A stretch of DNA of 64,000 nucleotides. It comes from Chitinophagaceae bacterium DXS (GTDB lineage: Bacteria > Bacteroidota > Bacteroidia > Chitinophagales > Chitinophagaceae). Numbering within the stretch: the first letter of the stretch is position 1; each line of letters starts with the position of its first letter. A program made the position numbers and the translations under genes. Shown one piece after another: positions 5,272 to 29,970 of the stretch. The notes under the pieces are model-generated. The model was not told the DNA's origin and searched no databases. It worked only from the letters and a program-made list of their open reading frames with translations. The stretch lies in assembly GCA_030345135.1 (NCBI GenBank), contig CP128386.1, positions 6,029,327 through 6,093,326 of the forward strand. Direction: 5' to 3'.

Positions 5272-5315
5272 AGGTATCTGTTTTTAGTTATTTGAGCGCA
5301 CAAAATAATAAAAAT

Positions 5316-5756
5316 AGTCAATAGTGAATAGTCAATGGTGAAAGGTGCATCCTTTTACGTAGTCGCAAACATCTGAAAATAGAAAAACTTTTAGTTGGAT
5401 AATTTTAGGCTGCTAGTGAATAGTGAATGGTCAATAGTGAATGGTGCATCCTCTTACGTAGTCACAAACATCTGAAAGTATAAGAACTTTTCGTTAGATA
5501 ATTTTAGGCTGCTAAAAATTGAATCAATTTAAATGAAATGCATTGCAAGTTTCATCTTTCACTATTGACTATTCACTTTTCACTATTGACCATTCACTTT
5601 TCACCAATCAAAATTGATCATTGCAAATAAAAAGTGTGCAAGCTCCACCTTTCACTATTGACCATTCACTTTTCACCATACAAAACTGCTCATTGTAAAT
5701 GAAATGAGTTGTAAGCCGCACCTTTCACTATTGACCATTCACCCTTCACTATAAAA
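5316..5756. repeat. mosaic of GTGAATAG-type heptad arrays with direct duplications
   Basis: Fills the 477-base gap between the M23 and OmpA genes. Two forward arrays of GTGAATA/GTGAATG/GTCAATA heptads (about 5316-5346 and 5415-5445) sit on a 99-bp direct repeat (GGTGCAT recurs at 5344 and 5443). Three reverse-oriented arrays follow (about 5556-5605, 5650-5677, 5723-5752), two of them 73 bp apart (CACCTTTCACT at 5646 and 5719). Forward and reverse arrays could pair into long hairpins. The last reverse array, read on the minus strand, contains the stop codon of the M23 gene. Confidence 0.85.
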
Positions 5757-6456
5757 ACCTCATCATATTCAACACAAGATCCGGATCCGGACAATTACCA
5801 AGATACTTGTCTGCTTCACTAAGACGACAAACACCCGGATAATCGCCTTGCTGTAGTTCCATATCAACAATCACCTGGAAATGAAGATGTGGTGGCCAGC
5901 ATCCATTTTCATGCACATTACCGAAACGGGCGATCTGTTCACCGTGAGTTATATACCTGCCTTTTTGCAAACCTGCTAAATCAAGTAAAGAAAGATGTCC
6001 GTACAAAGTATGAAATACAACACCATCAAGTTGATGCTGTAAGATTATGGTTGCGCCGTAATCTCCTTTATTGTTGTTGTTGGCAAAGCTGTGAATGCTT
6101 CCTCCCATCGGAGCGAAAACTGGCGTACCGGCTTTACCCCATATGTCAATTCCCAAATGAAGTGTGCGTGATTCTTCAACCAGCATCGCAGGTTCATTTT
6201 TATTCTTTTCAAACAGGTTAAACTGGTTGTACACAGTTCTGTTCTCTTTGTATCCACCAATGCCGTACAAGGCATTGCTTTCGGATAAGAGTTCGTTTAC
6301 ATAACTACAGAAGTGGTTTATATCCTGCATCACTTCCGTTGTAAGCTGGCGGTTATTTGCCGTCAGACCCATCTGCAGCAACTTGTCCTTCGACGGGTCA
6401 AAGGGTACAACCTTGTGAAAGGTATTGCGATATCTTTTTAATAATCCGGAAATCAT
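5749..6456 (-). CDS. M23-family metallopeptidase (peptidoglycan endopeptidase-like)
   Basis: 235 residues. Zinc-site motifs of the LytM/M23 fold are intact: HLGIDIWG (H-x3-D, about residue 127) and HLHFQ (about 191), plus H in TLYGHLS. No signal peptide or membrane segment at the N terminus, so it may be cytoplasmic or exported by another route; the N-terminal 110 residues are unassigned. M23 enzymes cut peptide cross-links in cell walls. The stop codon TAG is the first triplet of a GTGAATGG-type heptad array, and the start codon is directly preceded by an AGCT-heptad array. Confidence 0.8.
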   Translation of the reverse strand: MISGLLKRYRNTFHKVVPFDPSKDKLLQMGLTANNRQLTTEVMQDINHFCSYVNELLSESNALYGIGGYKENRTVYNQFNLFEKNKNEPAMLVEESRTLHLGIDIWGKAGTPVFAPMGGSIHSFANNNNKGDYGATIILQHQLDGVVFHTLYGHLSLLDLAGLQKGRYITHGEQIARFGNVHENGCWPPHLHFQVIVDMELQQGDYPGVCRLSEADKYLGNCPDPDLVLNMMRFL

Positions 6457-6836
6457 AAAAGCTATGAGCTGTCAGCTATAAGCTATCAGCTGTTGTTCAG
6501 TTTTAATCAACGTAATTATCTTTTCAAGTACGAATTACGAAGTACGAAGTACGTCAGGTGCATCAGGTTGTTTTTTTCAAACACTCTTAAAACAACAATC
6601 ATCATGACCGATCCTGTATATGCATTCGCACATTCTCACAGCCGAGCATTCGGACAATTAGCATATCCGCAAATTTACCAGCGCGCCTTCATTTTCAATT
6701 GTCCCTTTTCAATTATCAATTCAGTCGCACATTTGGATATTCACACATCCTCACATTCATTCGCACATCCGCACATTCTCATATCCGCACATTGACGCGC
6801 CTCATTTTCAATTTTCAATTATCCATTGTCAACTGA
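6457..6836 (-). repeat. composite repeat cassette A (polA stop to M23 start)
   Basis: The whole 380-base gap is made of short-period arrays. Read on the minus strand from polA: TTGAAAA heptads (6833-6804), GTGCGGAT/GTGCGAAT octads mixed with TTGAAAA heptads (about 6800-6625), a short unique piece, a GTACTTC/GTAATTC heptad array (about 6556-6528), then AGCTGAT/AGCTTAT heptads (6495-6459) up to the M23 ATG. The same order occurs in cassette B (23289-23631) on the other strand. Confidence 0.85.
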
Positions 6837-9698
6837 CTAATGCGCTGCCAGCCAGCTGTCTCCAACGCCTACCTCGGCCTCAACCGGCACATCATTCGGC
6901 AGAGGTAGTGCAATTTTCATGTTCTCCAATATCAACGGCTGAATGATGTCCAGTTCGCTCTTGACTACATCAAATACCAATTCATCATGCACCTGTAAGA
7001 TCATCCTGCTTTGCAGTTTTTCTTTCTTGATGGCTTCGTGAATTTTGATCATAGCAAGCTTGATCATATCTGCTGCCGTACCCTGGATGGGAGAGTTGAT
7101 CGCATTTCGCTCAGCAAAGCCGCGCACAGTAAAGTTGGATGAATTGATATCCCTTAGCCAGCGTTTACGTCCCATCAGCGTTTGCACATAACCATGTTCA
7201 CGCGCAAAGTTTGTGGTGTTATCCATGTATTTGGTGATGCCGATGAATTCCTTTTTGTAATTGTCGATAATTTCTTTGGCTTCGGTTCTGCTGATGCCCA
7301 GGTTGTCAGCCAGTCCAAAAGCACCTTGTCCGTATATGATACCGAAGTTTACGCTTTTTGCTTTGTAACGTTGTTCTTTTGTTACTTCACCCGGTTCAAC
7401 GCCATAAACTTTCGCTGCTGTAGCGGTGTGAATATCTATCCCTTGTTTAAATGCTTCGCACATATTGGGATCGCCACTTATCGCTGCAACGATGCGTAGT
7501 TCTATTTGCGAATAGTCGGCGCTGATCAATACATGATCACTGTTTCTGGGTATGAATGCTTTTCTTATTTCCTTGCCTCTTTCTGTCCTGATCGGAATGT
7601 TTTGAAGGTTAGGATTATTGCTGCTCAATCTGCCTGTAACCGCCACCGCCTGTGCGTAAGATGTATGCACACGACCTGTTTTGCGATTGATCATTAGCGG
7701 CAGTGCATCTACATAAGTGGACTTCAGCTTCGTCAATTCGCGGAAGGTTAGGATATCATCGACGATTGGGTTGGTTTGAGCCAATTTCAATAAAACATCC
7801 TCGCCTGTGGCATATTGGCCGGTTTTGGTTTTCTTGGCCTTAGGATCAAGTTTTAGTTTTTCAAACAATACTTCTCCTAATTGTTTAGGAGAGGCCAGGT
7901 TGAATTTAACACCCGCGCCTGCATACACATTCTGTTCAGCATCAGAAGCATCACTTTCCAATATTCTTGAATATTCTTTTAAGAAGCCTTCATCAATACG
8001 TACGCCTTCAAATTCCATATCGGTCAGTACTTTCACCAGCGGATTTTCTACTTCATAAAAAACCTTTTCTACTTCTTTAGCTTTCAGTCCCGGCTGCAAC
8101 GCATATTTCAGTTGTAAAGTAATATCCGCATCTTCCGCAGCGTAGTCTTTAATTTTTTCTACTTCCACATCGCGCATATTCCCTTGCGCCTTTCCTTTCT
8201 TGCCTATCAATTCTTCAATGTGCACAGGTTCATAATTCAGGTATTGTGCACTCAGCAAGTCCATACTGCGTCTGCCTTCCGGCTCAATAACATAGTGCGC
8301 GAGCATAGTGTCGTAAATGTTTCCGGCCAGCTCAATACCATACCATTTCAGTACCAGCAGATCATACTTTAAATTCTGTCCGATCCATGTTGTTTCGGTA
8401 CTATCAAACAATGGTTTGAAGATCTCTAATAACTGTTTTGTCTTTTCCTGATCAGCAGGTGCAGGTACATAATACGCTTCAAATGGTTTGTAGGAGAAGC
8501 TCATGCCAACAAGTTCAGCGTCGTTAGCGTCGATGTTCGTTGTTTCAGTGTCAAAGCAAATCTCTTTTTCTTTCAAAAGTTTTTGTACAAGATCCTTTGC
8601 TTTTTCATCTGTGTCGACGAGTATATATTCGTGAGGCGTATTGTTAATGTTTTTATCCGCATTAAAACCGCTCTCTACCGGTTCTGCCACTGCAGCTTTT
8701 GCGGGAGTTTTAGCAGGTACATCATTTCCAAATAAGTCCTTTTGACCGTTTTCTTTTGGTTCGGTTGTAGCTGCAAACATTTCGGTCTGAACAGCAACCG
8801 TGGTAGATTGAAACACATTGAATTCATCACCAAGAATGCGTTTGCCAAGCGTTTTGAATTCAAGCTCCGTAAATACTTCAATCAGGTCTACCTTATTCCA
8901 TTCTTTGATCTTATAATCTTCTTCATGGAACTGTACGGGTGCATCGGTAATGATTGTCGCCAGTTTCTTGCTCAATAGCGCAGATTCTTTTCCATTGCGA
9001 ACCTTTTCTCCCAGGGCGCCTTTTATGTTGTCAGCATTGGCAATAACGTTTTCAAGTGTGCTGTACTCTTTCAACAACTTGGCAGCAGTTTTTTCTCCAA
9101 CACCAGGAATGCCCGGAATATTATCTACGGCATCACCCATCAGGCCAAGGATATCCACTACCTGCTCAACGCGTTCTATGCTCCATTTGTCACACACTTT
9201 TTGCGCATCCAATATTTCAACATCACCGCCCTGGTAACCGGGTTTATAGATAAATACATTCTTGTGGATCAAGAGTTGGCCATAGTCTTTATCAGGCGTA
9301 ACCATGTATACTTCATAACCCTGGTCTGCAGCCTGCCAGGCAAGTGTTCCGATAACATCATCAGCTTCATATCCATCAACTTCTACAACAGGAATATTGA
9401 AACCTTTGATGATCTTTTTGATATCGTCTAATGAATCAAGCAGATCCTCGGGCGCTTCCTGCCGGTTGGCCTTATATTCAACAAACTCTGTGTGTCTTTC
9501 AGTTGGTGCGTGTGTGTCAAAACATACAGCGAGGTGCGTAGGTTTTTCTTTATTGATCAGGTCGTATAATGTATTGGTAAAACCGAACTGAGCGTTGGTA
9601 TTGCGACCTTTAGATGTAATACGCGGATTGCGGATCAACGCATAATACGCACGATATATCAGTGCCAGTGCATCTAGCAGGAAGAGTTTTTTTGCCAT
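6837..9698 (-). CDS. polA: DNA polymerase I
   Basis: 953 residues, full length. N-terminal 5'-3' nuclease domain (1 to about 290, starting KKLFLLDALALIYRAYYAL, with DGYEADDVIGTLA and the helix-hairpin-helix GIPGVGEKTAAKLL). A 3'-5' exonuclease domain follows with an intact DEDDy start (FDTETTN) and YAAEDADIT, so proofreading should be active. Polymerase domain carries DYSQIELR (near 730) and VHDELVF (near 900). Repairs DNA and matures Okazaki fragments. The stop codon is followed after four bases by TTGAAAA-type heptads. Confidence 0.98.
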   Translation of the reverse strand: MAKKLFLLDALALIYRAYYALIRNPRITSKGRNTNAQFGFTNTLYDLINKEKPTHLAVCFDTHAPTERHTEFVEYKANRQEAPEDLLDSLDDIKKIIKGFNIPVVEVDGYEADDVIGTLAWQAADQGYEVYMVTPDKDYGQLLIHKNVFIYKPGYQGGDVEILDAQKVCDKWSIERVEQVVDILGLMGDAVDNIPGIPGVGEKTAAKLLKEYSTLENVIANADNIKGALGEKVRNGKESALLSKKLATIITDAPVQFHEEDYKIKEWNKVDLIEVFTELEFKTLGKRILGDEFNVFQSTTVAVQTEMFAATTEPKENGQKDLFGNDVPAKTPAKAAVAEPVESGFNADKNINNTPHEYILVDTDEKAKDLVQKLLKEKEICFDTETTNIDANDAELVGMSFSYKPFEAYYVPAPADQEKTKQLLEIFKPLFDSTETTWIGQNLKYDLLVLKWYGIELAGNIYDTMLAHYVIEPEGRRSMDLLSAQYLNYEPVHIEELIGKKGKAQGNMRDVEVEKIKDYAAEDADITLQLKYALQPGLKAKEVEKVFYEVENPLVKVLTDMEFEGVRIDEGFLKEYSRILESDASDAEQNVYAGAGVKFNLASPKQLGEVLFEKLKLDPKAKKTKTGQYATGEDVLLKLAQTNPIVDDILTFRELTKLKSTYVDALPLMINRKTGRVHTSYAQAVAVTGRLSSNNPNLQNIPIRTERGKEIRKAFIPRNSDHVLISADYSQIELRIVAAISGDPNMCEAFKQGIDIHTATAAKVYGVEPGEVTKEQRYKAKSVNFGIIYGQGAFGLADNLGISRTEAKEIIDNYKKEFIGITKYMDNTTNFAREHGYVQTLMGRKRWLRDINSSNFTVRGFAERNAINSPIQGTAADMIKLAMIKIHEAIKKEKLQSRMILQVHDELVFDVVKSELDIIQPLILENMKIALPLPNDVPVEAEVGVGDSWLAAH

Positions 9699-9724
9699 GC
9701 GGCTAAGTTAATGATTTGGACCGG

Positions 9725-9832
9725 AAAAGACAGTAAGATCGTAAGACGGGGAAGACATGTAAGACACGTAAGACACGTAAGACAGTAAGATCGTAAGATT
9801 GTAAGACCGTAAGATGTGTAAAAGTTATGTGA
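9725..9832 (+). repeat. GTAAGAC octamer array (left arm)
   Basis: About a dozen units of GTAAGAC plus one or two variable bases, between the polA start and a 101-bp tandem repeat. Its reverse complement occurs at 10257-10345, so the two arms bracket the tandem repeat. Confidence 0.85.
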
Positions 9833-9836
9833 GTGC

Positions 9837-10209
9837 ATCTTGCGATGGATTGTCTTGACCTGGATTTGTTGGATTTAGGAATTGACGGGATTATTGATTG
9901 GGAAAGATGGAGGATAATTTCGATTTGAATGTACTCGATCTTGCTATGGATTGTCTTGACCGGGATTTGTTGGATTTAGGAATTGACGGGATTATTGATT
10001 GGGAAAGATGGAGGATAATTTCGATTTGAATGTAGTCGATCTTGCTATGGATTGTCTTGACCTGGATTTGTTGGATTTAGGGATTGACGGGATTATTGAT
10101 TGGGAATGAAGGATGATGATTTTGATTTGATTGTTGCGCATCTTGCAATGGATTGTCTTGACCGGGATTGATGGGATTTAAGGATTGGCAGGATTTAGAT
10201 GCAGATTGA
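9837..10209. repeat. 101-bp tandem repeat, about 3.7 copies
   Basis: Unit boundaries, taken at ATCTTGC, lie at 9837, 9938, 10039 and 10140, an exact 101-bp period. Copies 1-2 are nearly identical; copies 3-4 diverge toward their ends. Inside each unit GGATTTGTT/GGATTTAGG/ATTGACGGG words repeat at about 9 bases. A related phrase follows the amidohydrolase stop codon at 30020-30054, so this is a dispersed family. No conserved ORF: 101 is not a multiple of 3 and the short ORFs differ between copies. Confidence 0.9.
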
Positions 10210-10256
10210 TTTTTTATTTCTTATACGTCTTAAGATATTACGCATCTTGTGGTTTT

Positions 10257-10345
10257 TCCTTCTTACACGTTTTATATGTTTTACGCGTCTTACATGTCTT
10301 ACGGGTCTTACGATCTTACTGTCTTACGTGTCTTACGGTCTTACT
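10257..10345 (-). repeat. GTAAGAC octamer array (right arm, minus sense)
   Basis: Read on the minus strand this is GTAAGACC, GTAAGACAC, GTAAGACA, GTAAGATC and further units. It starts inside the CYTH gene: the stop codon TAA (10341-10343) is part of the first unit. Confidence 0.85.
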
Positions 10346-10859
10346 CTCTTCCCACCATGTCGCTGTAGCTGTTTTGAATAAGGTCTTCTTCTTTTATTCC
10401 GAAGGCTTCCATTAACTGTTGGCATTGTTGATGAAGTTCCTCTACAGTTTTGTTGGGGGCGGTGATGTTGCCGGCTTCAATTTCAACAAAGCTGCCGAGG
10501 GTTTCAAGCTCGTCAAGATGGATTTTTACGTTGTCAAGAAAAAAGATCTTTCTTTTTTTCTCAACGATGACTTTTACGCCAAGTGCATTTTGAAGCAGTA
10601 GTTCCAGTTCGGGACCTTGTGCAATTTTTACCAGGTCAAAATCGGACTGCTTGGGACCGGCCTGGTCGTTCCGCTGATAGAAAATAAGGCTGTTTTCAAT
10701 GTTGCCCTGCCGCAGTTTAAGGCGGCCGTTCGGAACATTAAAATAGGTGTCTTTTTGATGATCAGTACCTTTGAAAACTGCATTGTGTTGCAACAAAAAT
10801 GCTTCCACCTTTTCGGGATGGAAGCATCTTGCTTTTATTTCAACATTAATATGTTTCAT
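10341..10859 (-). CDS. CYTH domain protein (class IV adenylate cyclase / thiamine-triphosphatase-like)
   Basis: 172 residues, single CYTH triphosphate-tunnel domain. The N-terminal signature is NVEIKAR (residues 5-11), a variant of ExExK with Asn in place of the first Glu; other basic and acidic strand residues (GRLKLRQG, HLDELETLGSFVEIE) match the CyaB type. The fold hydrolyses or cyclises triphosphate substrates; the actual substrate here is unknown. Starts 11 bases downstream of the preceding gene on the same strand, so they are probably one operon. Confidence 0.8.
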   Translation of the reverse strand: MKHINVEIKARCFHPEKVEAFLLQHNAVFKGTDHQKDTYFNVPNGRLKLRQGNIENSLIFYQRNDQAGPKQSDFDLVKIAQGPELELLLQNALGVKVIVEKKRKIFFLDNVKIHLDELETLGSFVEIEAGNITAPNKTVEELHQQCQQLMEAFGIKEEDLIQNSYSDMVGRE

Positions 10860-19760: not shown

Positions 19761-19864
19761 GTAAGACCGTAAGACCGTAAGACCGTAAGACAGTAAGACA
19801 GTAAGACAGTAAGACAGTAAGACAGTAAGACAGTAAGATCGTAAGACCGTAAGATAGTAAGAGT
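19761..19864 (+). repeat. GTAAGACN perfect octamer array, 13 units
   Basis: Thirteen uninterrupted 8-base units from 19761; the first seven bases are constant apart from a few changes, the eighth is C or A in blocks (CCC then AAAAAA, then mixed). About 40 bases after the SRPBCC stop. Paired with a reverse array at 19901-19938. Confidence 0.95.
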
Positions 19865-22793: not shown

Positions 22794-23288
22794 ATGGATA
22801 GGGAAGAATTTTATGAACCCGCTTATAAGGGTTCTAAAGATTTTAACCAGTGGGATGTTAAGACAGCCAATGCCACTGGTTTTGGTGCCGCTGCAGATGA
22901 TTATATGGAGCGCGGCATTGATTTAAATGAGCAACTTATCCGTAATAAACCGGCCACTTTTTTCTTTCGCATGAACAGCGATGCGATGGTGGGCGCCGGT
23001 ATACAAAATGGTGATATACTAATTGTTGATAAAAGCATCCGGGCGACCAACGGAAAGATAATTGTCGCGGCTGTTAACGGGGATCTTCTTGTGAGGCGCT
23101 ATCAGCAAACGATGAATCGCGTCTCCCTGATGGCCGAAAATAAAAAGTACAGTGATATAGATATGGGTGAATTTACTGAATATCGCGCCTGGGGTGTTGT
23201 TACCTGCGTTATTCATATACTGGATGCGGCGCTGCAGGCCGCAACGGCGCCGGCGCAGCAAGCAAACAGGAGGAGGATCAAGTATTAA
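22794..23288 (+). CDS. umuD: UmuD-like S24 protein lacking the catalytic Ser/Lys dyad
   Basis: 164 residues, co-linear with E. coli UmuD from the cleavage region (TGFGAAADDYME vs CGFPSPAADYVE) through RIDLNQLLI-type and GDILIVD segments to VWGVVTCVIHIL. The catalytic Ser60 of UmuD falls on Ala64 (MNSDAM where family has GDSM) and the general-base Lys97 falls on Arg101 (LLVRRYQ vs FTVKKLQ). The gene reads gcg and agg at these codons, so this is not a translation error. In UmuD, Ser60Ala blocks self-cleavage. Likely partner of the UmuC-like polymerase downstream, but the two are separated by 343 bases of repeats instead of overlapping. Confidence 0.85.
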   Translation: MDREEFYEPAYKGSKDFNQWDVKTANATGFGAAADDYMERGIDLNEQLIRNKPATFFFRMNSDAMVGAGIQNGDILIVDKSIRATNGKIIVAAVNGDLLVRRYQQTMNRVSLMAENKKYSDIDMGEFTEYRAWGVVTCVIHILDAALQAATAPAQQANRRRIKY

Positions 23289-23631
23289 TGTGCAGATGTG
23301 CGAATATGCAAATGGGTAAATGAATTGAGAATTGAAAATTGAAAATGAGGACGAATTGGTGGATGTGCAAATATGCAAATGCGAGAATGAATTGAAAATT
23401 GAAAAGGGATAATTGAAAATGATGGCGAATTAGTAAATGTGCAAATATGCAAATGTGCGAATGATTTAAGAAACTGGTTAAGCATTACGCGTGATCGATA
23501 GAAATTAAGTTAATGCACCTAACGTACTTCGTACCTCGTAATTCGTACTTGCAAAGCGCAGGCAAAAGAGCAGTTAAGTTGATCAAAATTAAACAGTTGC
23601 TGAAAGCTTATAGCTGACAGCTCACAGCTAA
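23289..23631 (+). repeat. composite repeat cassette B (umuD stop to umuC start)
   Basis: The whole gap is arrays: octads TGTGCAGA, TGTGCGAA, TATGCAAA starting at the base after the umuD stop, TTGAAAA heptads, again TATGCAAA octads (to 23462), a unique 50 bases, the GTACTTC/GTAATTC array (23524-23552), a GATCAAAATTAAAC piece, then AGCTTAT/AGCTGAC heptads (about 23605-23630) ending at the umuC ATG. Same order and sense relative to genes as cassette A. Confidence 0.85.
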
Positions 23632-24921
23632 ATGAAAGCCATAGTTGATTGTAACAGTTTCTACTGCTCGTGTGAGCGGGTGTTCAGGCCTGATCTGATG
23701 AACAGGCCTGTGGTAGTGCTTAGCAATAATGATGGGTGTATTGTTTCGCGGAGTGATGAAGTTAAGGCACTTGGTGTTGAGATGGCTGTTCCTTATTTCC
23801 AGGCAAAACCGGTCATTGAGAAACATGGTGTCGAAGCTTTTTCTTCTAACTACAATCTGTATGGTGATTTAAGCTGGCGCGTAATGGAAACCTTACGTGA
23901 AATGGTTGGCAAAAACAACGTAGAGATTTATTCTGTTGATGAGGCCTTTATTGACATGCAGCATATTCCTGCTGAACAATTGCATGAAACAGCCATGCGC
24001 ATGCGTCACACAGTTGAACAATGGACCGGAATCGCTGTCTCAATTGGCGTGGCTCCAACTAAAGTGCTGAGTAAACTGGCCAACAGGCTGGCGAAAAAGA
24101 ACAAAAAGAAAACACAATGCGTATTAGTATTAAATGATCCTGAAATCATTACGGAGGCTTTGATAAGAACGCCGGTAAGTGAAATTTGGGGTGTAGGGAG
24201 AAGTTATGCTGAAAAGCTGGTGAAGTGGGGAATTGACGATGCTTATCAATTAAGCAGGATGCCCGAAGAATGGGCAAGGAAAAATCTTGGGGGTGTGGTA
24301 GGTGTGCGATTGATCAGAGAATTGAAAGGTTATCATGCAATTGATATGGACGATGAGCTGGACTCCAAGAAGATGATCGCCACGACGCGCATGTTTGGAA
24401 CGCCGGTTTCAGATCTGCAGGATATAAAGGAAGCGGTTGCAACGTACACTTCAAGGGCTGCTGAAAAATTGAGGCGGCAATATGGTGCAGCGAGTGTTGT
24501 AAGTGTATTCGTGGTGCCGCGCGAAGAACGAAAGCCAGATGAAAAATATTCACATGGTACTACCGTAAGCAGGCATATTGTACTTCCTTATGCAACATCT
24601 ATAACGCAGGAGCTGATCAAGCCTGCGCTACAATTAACAGAACAGGTGTATGTAAAAGGGTTGAAGTACAAAAAAGCCGGCGTGATGCTGAGTGGAATTG
24701 TAGATGATTCAAGCATTCAGGGCAATTTGTTTATTGACGAGTCTCAGCAGAAGGAAAAGAACAGGATGTTAATGGCCATGATGGATAACATCAATTTCAG
24801 CATGCGCGATGATGCCTTGAAGTTTGCCGCCAGCGGCACTGACCGCAACTGGAAGATGCGCCAGGAATTTCGTAGCCCCCGTTATACAACAAGATGGAAT
24901 GAACTGCCGGAAGTGGGGTAG
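23632..24921 (+). CDS. umuC: Y-family DNA polymerase, UmuC type
   Basis: 429 residues. Palm residues D6 (AIVDCNSFY) and D103-E104 (SVDEAFID) are intact; Tyr11 is the steric gate position. GVAPTKVLSKLANRLAKK and ELKGYHAIDMD match UmuC rather than DinB, and the C-terminal little-finger domain plus a UmuC-specific tail are present. Performs error-prone translesion synthesis, normally with a cleaved UmuD dimer. The stop codon TAG is the first triplet of an AGCT-heptad array. Confidence 0.95.
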   Translation: MKAIVDCNSFYCSCERVFRPDLMNRPVVVLSNNDGCIVSRSDEVKALGVEMAVPYFQAKPVIEKHGVEAFSSNYNLYGDLSWRVMETLREMVGKNNVEIYSVDEAFIDMQHIPAEQLHETAMRMRHTVEQWTGIAVSIGVAPTKVLSKLANRLAKKNKKKTQCVLVLNDPEIITEALIRTPVSEIWGVGRSYAEKLVKWGIDDAYQLSRMPEEWARKNLGGVVGVRLIRELKGYHAIDMDDELDSKKMIATTRMFGTPVSDLQDIKEAVATYTSRAAEKLRRQYGAASVVSVFVVPREERKPDEKYSHGTTVSRHIVLPYATSITQELIKPALQLTEQVYVKGLKYKKAGVMLSGIVDDSSIQGNLFIDESQQKEKNRMLMAMMDNINFSMRDDALKFAASGTDRNWKMRQEFRSPRYTTRWNELPEVG

Positions 24922-29396: not shown

Positions 29397-29843
29397 ATGC
29401 GCTACCTGCTCATGCTGCTAACATTGATTATTGGCACTTTTATTCCTATTCAGGCTGTTTTAAATACAAAATTGGGTAGACAGATTGGCGGTCCGTTAAT
29501 GGGCTCTTTGATGAGCTTTTTTGTAGGCTTTGTTTGTTTGCTCATTTTAAATTTCAGCGTTAACACCCAAGCGGTTGTCCATATTAAACCTTCCACAACT
29601 TATCCCTGGTATATCTGGATGGGCGGAGTTATCGGCGCCATCTTCGTCGGTTACATTACCTGGGTTAACCAACAGCAAGGTGTCGCCCTGACTTTCGCGC
29701 TGGTAGTAAGCGGACAAATATTTGCCTCTCTTATAATCGATCACTACGGCTTGTTTGGCTCAGTGGTGAAATCGATCACAACCGAAAAGATCATTGGTGC
29801 GGTGTTGATTCTTGCAGGATTGGTGCTGATAAAAAGATCGTAA
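29397..29843 (+). CDS. YdcZ/DUF606-family DMT transporter
   Basis: 148 residues, five hydrophobic segments, with the family start LTLIIGTFIPIQAVLNTKLGR and the end TTEKIIGAVLILAGLVLIK. Inner-membrane half-size member of the drug/metabolite transporter superfamily; substrate unknown. Its last codons (AAA AGA TCG TAA) already belong to a GTAAGAC octamer array. Confidence 0.88.
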   Translation: MRYLLMLLTLIIGTFIPIQAVLNTKLGRQIGGPLMGSLMSFFVGFVCLLILNFSVNTQAVVHIKPSTTYPWYIWMGGVIGAIFVGYITWVNQQQGVALTFALVVSGQIFASLIIDHYGLFGSVVKSITTEKIIGAVLILAGLVLIKRS

Positions 29844-29970
29844 GATAGTAAGATAGTAAGACCGTAAGACCGTAAGACCGTAAGACCGTAAGACCGTAAG
29901 ACCGTAAGACCGTAAGACCGTAAGAAAAAAAGACGTGTAAGATAGTAAGAAAGTAAGATCGTAAGAGGTA
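29838..29970 (+). repeat. GTAAGACC octamer array beginning in the ydcZ stop codon
   Basis: Units GTAAGATA, GTAAGATA, then eight perfect GTAAGACC copies at 29856-29919, then degenerate units to 29967. The stop TAA (29841-29843) is inside the first unit. Confidence 0.95.

Follow-up and report, generated by a model that had tools for sequence, protein, structure and literature searches.

The gap between a umuD-type and a umuC-type gene of Chitinophagaceae bacterium DXS and the gap between polA and an M23 peptidase gene, 17 kb apart, hold common families of short tandem repeats in identical order, as read from the sequence, and the question is whether this order records the movement of one composite element. 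The window that was analyzed is a stretch of 64,000 nucleotides (positions 6,029,327–6,093,326 of the complete 7.29-Mb chromosome). The umuD-type gene (S24 peptidase; 22794–23288, plus strand; ORF list; Pfam PF00717, E 2e-22) ends directly at the first gap, which extends to a umuC-type gene (Y-family polymerase; 23632–24921, plus strand; Pfam IMS and DUF4113) with a start codon at the same position as in relatives; named relatives of this UmuC place the organism in or near the Chitinophagaceae. The second gap lies on the minus strand between polA (DNA polymerase I; 6837–9698, minus; Pfam PF00476 and exonuclease domains) and the M23 peptidase gene (5749–6456, minus; Pfam PF01551). Read in gene sense, both gaps run from a block of octads and AATTGAA heptads through a middle piece to a GTACTTC arm, a linker, and AGCT heptads that lead up to the ATG. 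The earlier note had described this shared order; sequence, coordinates and order all agree with it, and the Pfam matches back the four flanking genes.

In the umuD–umuC gap, the left block (23289–23464, plus strand) consists of TGTGCGAA-type octads interleaved with AATTGAA heptads, the middle piece (23465–23513) is absent from the polA gap and from the other sampled loci, and the right block (23514–23631) comprises a TGCACCT flank, a GTAC arm (23523–23550), the linker, and an AGCT arm (23599–23629), ending at the umuC ATG. The corresponding parts of the polA–M23 gap, on the minus strand, are a left block of octads and AATTGAA heptads (6622–6836), a middle piece with no kinship to its counterpart (6563–6621), and a right block (6457–6562) with TGCACCT flank, GTAC arm (6553–6526), linker and AGCT arm (6491–6460), ending at the M23 ATG. 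The earlier note had spoken of a short unique piece with TGCACCT; the middle of the umuD–umuC gap indeed has no further match in the sampled DNA, but TGCACCT belongs to (T)GCACCTNACGTACTTC, which flanks the arm on its inner side in a GTAC-arm subfamily with about 30 occurrences.

The likeness of the two gaps exceeds the general repeat background: their reciprocal coverage (96%/99%) is the highest among the 139 array-bearing gaps sampled, although by best single match the pair comes no higher than 55th. Compared with each other, the left blocks agree at 80% (100 bits); that of the umuD–umuC gap, however, has stronger matches at 974,859 (77%, 130 bits) and 4,768,484 (76%, 115 bits), and that of the polA gap matches 457,554 about equally well (98.7 bits); both are members of a dispersed family with dozens of loci. 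The middle pieces (49–59 bases) are unrelated, with a mutual score of 8.0 against 8.4 ± 1.7 in shuffles. The right blocks share 78% identity over 117 bp (E 4e-21) and are reciprocally best, at 96–98 bits to each other and 66–76 bits to the next best matches. The gap at 457,554 contains octad, AATT and octad stretches and a GTAC arm, followed by a GACTTTT arm in place of AGCT; because it combines the left block and GTAC arm of the pair with a different right end, the modules evidently recombine.

It is therefore unlikely that the whole ordered cassette is a single mobile element that was inserted in both gaps and had its middle replaced later. The collinear order, the top reciprocal coverage, and the dispersal of other multi-family composites as units would all fit such an element, as the earlier note had proposed for these gaps, but the middles are unrelated, the left block beside umuD is closer to other loci, 457,554 joins the same left half to another right end, and the 7.29-Mb genome holds just the two full copies, with no third. 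No full cassette was seen in a limited test of 295 same-family genomes, in which two candidates were scored per genome; in the search of all 296 (the source genome included), scored in the same way, the sole outside match was to the left block, in one genome (G010). By eye, no consistent or convincing target duplications flank either gap. What survives of the proposal is the common order and the reciprocal homology of the right blocks, which keeps the idea of copying alive even though the rest of the genome lacks another full cassette.

A second possibility, that the agreement in order is a coincidence of common, side-polarized families landing independently in many gaps, is quite improbable. 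All of the families are common and restricted to one side, and GTAC recurs beside AGCT on the right sides of several gaps (at 2,112,343, for example, a GTAC arm with TGCACC flank precedes a linker, AGCT and an ATG). Chance agreement of this kind is disfavored by the GTAC–AGCT linkers of the two gaps, which are homologous (score 19 against 8.2 ± 1.7 in shuffles, 6 SD higher), and by the linker motif GTTGATNAAAANTNAAC, which is not a dispersed repeat of the genome (nine matches vs. 13 in a reversed control, with no enrichment). On sequence comparison, the GTAC–linker–AGCT module pair is clearly a private copy, recognizably common to just the two gaps. A test for local copying of the left arm of a gap to its right side gave no significant result (742 vs. 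a permutation mean of 677 and maximum of 820).

The earlier note had also taken the umuDC operon to be normally tight, and this does not hold for the family. Among 80 loci in which umuD lies upstream of umuC (that of the window included), 30 junctions are tight (≤25 bp, many with a 4-bp overlap) and 50 are open, by as much as 1,164 bp; most of what these contain has no relation to the cassette, and a broken operon is thus common in the family. Cassette-free alleles, which the note had suggested seeking, do exist, and the junction is best regarded as insertion-tolerant rather than as a special target of the cassette. Heptad arrays of other families occupy a few junctions (L026, L028, L160, L018, and L216). 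Single ORFs stand between umuD and umuC in others (for example, L148, L180, L194, L197, L017, L144, L147, L150, L151, L161, and L205), and by eye these look like putative IS200/RAYT-type transposases or DUF559-type endonucleases. The umuD–umuC junction appears to be an insertion hotspot in the family.

The repeats themselves are a genome-wide feature. In 800 kb sampled evenly from the chromosome, there are 249 period-7 segments (vs. one in a shuffle) and 24 period-8 segments (vs. one), counts far beyond chance, while periods 5, 6, 9, 10, and 11 yield zero to seven segments. The genome contains hundreds of arms of 27–35 bp with an internal rhythm of 7 or 8 bases, belonging to about ten families, and the arrays are intergenic in 321 of 360 cases. 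In the direction leading away from the gene, the GTAC arm reads as one fixed 27-mer with an interruption, AAGTACGANTTACGAAGTACGAAGTAC, of which the genome has 281 copies at ≤3 mismatches and the reversed control none. The arm ends sharply on its outer side; on the inner side, a weak consensus runs on for about 25 bases, after which the core is not conserved. Across 61 genomes, 135 copies occur in one member of another genus (G003; genus g4) and zero to three in each of 59 others. In G003, GTAC arms lie at or near the ends of contigs C4, C14, C43, C45, and C94, and many arms are thus probably missing from drafts of genomes of this kind. Between close species (L158/L169, L142/L143, and L147/L144), array positions are kept while the units change much faster than the flanks; L147 and L144 differ over a stretch of about 600 bp, with the loss of one arm there. 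No clean empty site was found in these pairs.

The arms are oriented relative to genes. In the defining sample, 145 arms lie no more than 80 bp from a gene, and 134 of them point outward (134 vs. 11), counted over the seven families with determinable strand, with families defined by hand and gene ends taken from a simple ORF caller, for which start codons are approximate. The rule holds at 3′ ends (104 of 112; 104 vs. 8) and at 5′ ends (30 of 33; 30 vs. 3). Since the expected orientation was set from this first sample, the trustworthy figure is that of 33 separate held-out loci, in which 73 of 80 arms point outward (73 vs. 7). Where both orientations of one family share a gap, they stand in the expected order in 22/22 and 14/14 gaps, and in 4/4 in G003; gaps with a single arm are outward in 26 vs. 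4 cases. Gene-edge polarity in G003 is weak (14 vs. 9), many arms there being away from gap edges. The outward rule at both gene ends suggests organization at the level of DNA, and because the polarity is independent of transcription direction and present in single-arm and hybrid-ended gaps, we infer a DNA-level cause. In the literature searched, which covered few subscription papers, we found no report of the rule.

Arms also form larger arrangements. A unit of about 250 bp, in which a conserved core separates a CACTA arm from an AGCC/AGCT arm, occurs at L073:18938–19201 and at dozens of loci in the source genome (G000), with 75–97% identity (40 of 369 candidates scored), so that composite units are truly copied in this genome. 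Copying of a multi-family set, as claimed in the earlier note, is thus real, although the pair of gaps that it named is not the best example. Inverted CTTATATGGTTTAAAA motifs flank some copies of the CACTA–AGCC composite, and the composite is sometimes nested in a GTAC arm pair (L296). Clusters in which an arm and spacer are repeated several times before an inverted arm are frequent. Elsewhere in the window, inverted octad arms, fully complementary over 32 nt, surround 3.6 copies of a 101-bp unit (9699–10350; RNA fold z −7.2), and 5272–5749 has AATAGTG/TTCACTA arms at either side, along with 99-bp and 72-bp higher-order repeats. Long, near-perfect runs of GTAAGACN octads occupy 19761–19862 and 29834–29925.

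One could suppose that some further machinery adds or inserts heptad and octad arms outward from gene edges, for example by templated end addition during break repair. If so, both sides of a gap would receive the same strand, and the polarity at both gene ends would be explained, as would the hybrid ends, the sharp edges of the arms and their lack of a common core; we nevertheless hold such edge-outward writing to be a long shot.

Slipped-strand expansion of heptamer microsatellites, arising independently in each gap, is very improbable as a general account. Periods of 7 and 8, some long perfect octad runs, and the over-representation of heptamers in many bacteria that passages of PMC4692102 and PMC4679880 cite would accord with it. 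Slippage should leave a uniform unit with freely varying copy number, and the GTAC arm has instead a fixed interrupted order and sharp edges; its copy pattern in two genera (281 here and 135 in G003) is unlike the outcome of independent slippage, as are sharp outer edges and fixed polarity relative to genes. Slippage is accordingly disfavored for the GTAC and AGCT arms. The octads come nearer to such a uniform unit, and slippage may still account for the octad families; it seems likelier for the two long octad runs of the window than it does for heptad arms.

That the paired arms act at the RNA level, as hairpins or terminators that insulate or stabilize transcripts and whose polarity is kept by selection, is likewise very improbable: same-family-ended gaps such as 9699–10350 can fold strongly (z −7.2), arms prefer 3′ ends, and terminator-like sites reading outward are in slight excess (19 vs. 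9 of 223), but the polarity extends to 5′ ends, to single-arm gaps, and to hybrid-ended gaps that are unable to pair, shuffled sequences fold as well as the cassette does (z +1.45), and the umuD–umuC gap has no terminator-like site. A hairpin or terminator function of the cassette is not supported, and the window gave no Rfam matches at the gathering threshold.

Among known systems, REPINs and BIMEs with their RAYT transposases (Bertels and Rainey, 2011; PMC3116915) are similar in arrangement. Like these, the repeats described here are short, extragenic and dispersed in hundreds of copies (the 281 GTAC 27-mers), form clusters, and occur as inverted doublets with fixed polarity (the 22/22 and 14/14 gaps) and variable spacers, though both cassettes are hybrid-ended. 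Unlike them, the arms are tandem heptads with no REP-type palindrome, as read from the arm sequences, hybrid-ended composites are common, and no RAYT is linked to the arms: the seven Y1 (IS200/RAYT-type) loci of the genome lack flanking heptad arms, their flanks bearing other hairpin motifs and one weak, distant octad-like stretch, and no mobilizer was found. RAYT-like ORFs of the same genome (L257, L258, and L259) have their own nearby hairpin motifs unrelated to heptad arms. In our best reading, the arms are heptads arranged in the manner of REPIN/BIME clusters, with no known mobilizer.

Heptamer repeats between genes are on record for Beggiatoaceae, Cyanobacteria, and some Bacteroidetes; the TAACTGA heptamers form intergenic arrays that are patchily distributed over phyla, including Bacteroidetes, and often stand directly before start codons (MacGregor, 2015; PMC4679880). 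Read outward from the gene, TAACTGA becomes AGTTATC, which resembles arms of relatives (AGTTGACAGTTGATAG, locus L147), but in that system a single heptamer forms short direct arrays, for which a role in translation was proposed (PMC4679880), whereas here there are about ten families, octads as well as heptads, arms that are fixed and interrupted, composites, and a polarity that is outward at 5′ and 3′ gene ends alike. The GGGAATC heptamers of Xanthomonas are intergenic and often lie close together as inverted pairs, of which two genomes have 70 and 75, and heptamer repeats between genes also occur in Nostoc (Rehm et al., 2015; PMC4692102); GGGAATC is a single, G-rich, G-quadruplex-forming family, while the arms here are of several families and not G-rich. 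The heptanucleotide repeats of the cyanobacterium Calothrix, cited in a passage of PMC4692102, are by description likewise families between genes. The arms share period 7 and intergenic position with heptamer simple-sequence repeats in general. The BrickBuilt MITE of Porphyromonas gingivalis, another member of the Bacteroidota, by description also lies between genes and has tandem repeats in its interior and ends that are inverted, but it has 23-bp units, one family and 19 copies (PMC4596501); unlike in a MITE, the cassette ends belong to different families, and the cores of GTAC arms are unconserved.

Our favored interpretation, which we consider probable, is that both gaps are mosaics of non-autonomous, dispersed extragenic repeats spread by copying, and represent two diverged, hybrid-ended composites. 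Oriented arm families, each reading outward from the adjacent gene, often stand as inverted pairs around an unrelated core, as clusters of arms and spacers, or as hybrid-ended composites, and in these two gaps the octad/AATT arms supply one side and the GTAC and AGCT arms the other. The right block (GTAC arm, linker, and AGCT arm) is a common copy recent enough to be recognized, and the left block is a member of a wider family. Arms and composites may spread within the genome by ectopic recombination, gene conversion or trans-mobilization, may also pass between genera, and would build up at sites where an insertion is nearly harmless, for the most part downstream of genes. That the repeats are mobile, and in which direction, we infer; copy number, fixed arms, polarity, the dispersal of composites and right-block homology are observed. 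Against such dispersal, no target-site duplication and no same-site empty/filled pair within a species was found, and it cannot be the only process, as slippage must act on some families (compare the octad runs at 19761–19862 and 29834–29925).

For the two gaps themselves, the import is limited: they illustrate mosaic intergenic DNA well, and umuDC is often open in the family anyway. Heptamer repeats between bacterial genes have so far been reported piecemeal, in several phyla and without a mechanism. The polarity rule at both gene ends, the fixed arm that two genera have in identical form and in hundreds of copies, and the composites copied as units are grounds for regarding those described here as a dispersed-repeat system rather than as "microsatellites," such that their mover and their effect can be sought directly.
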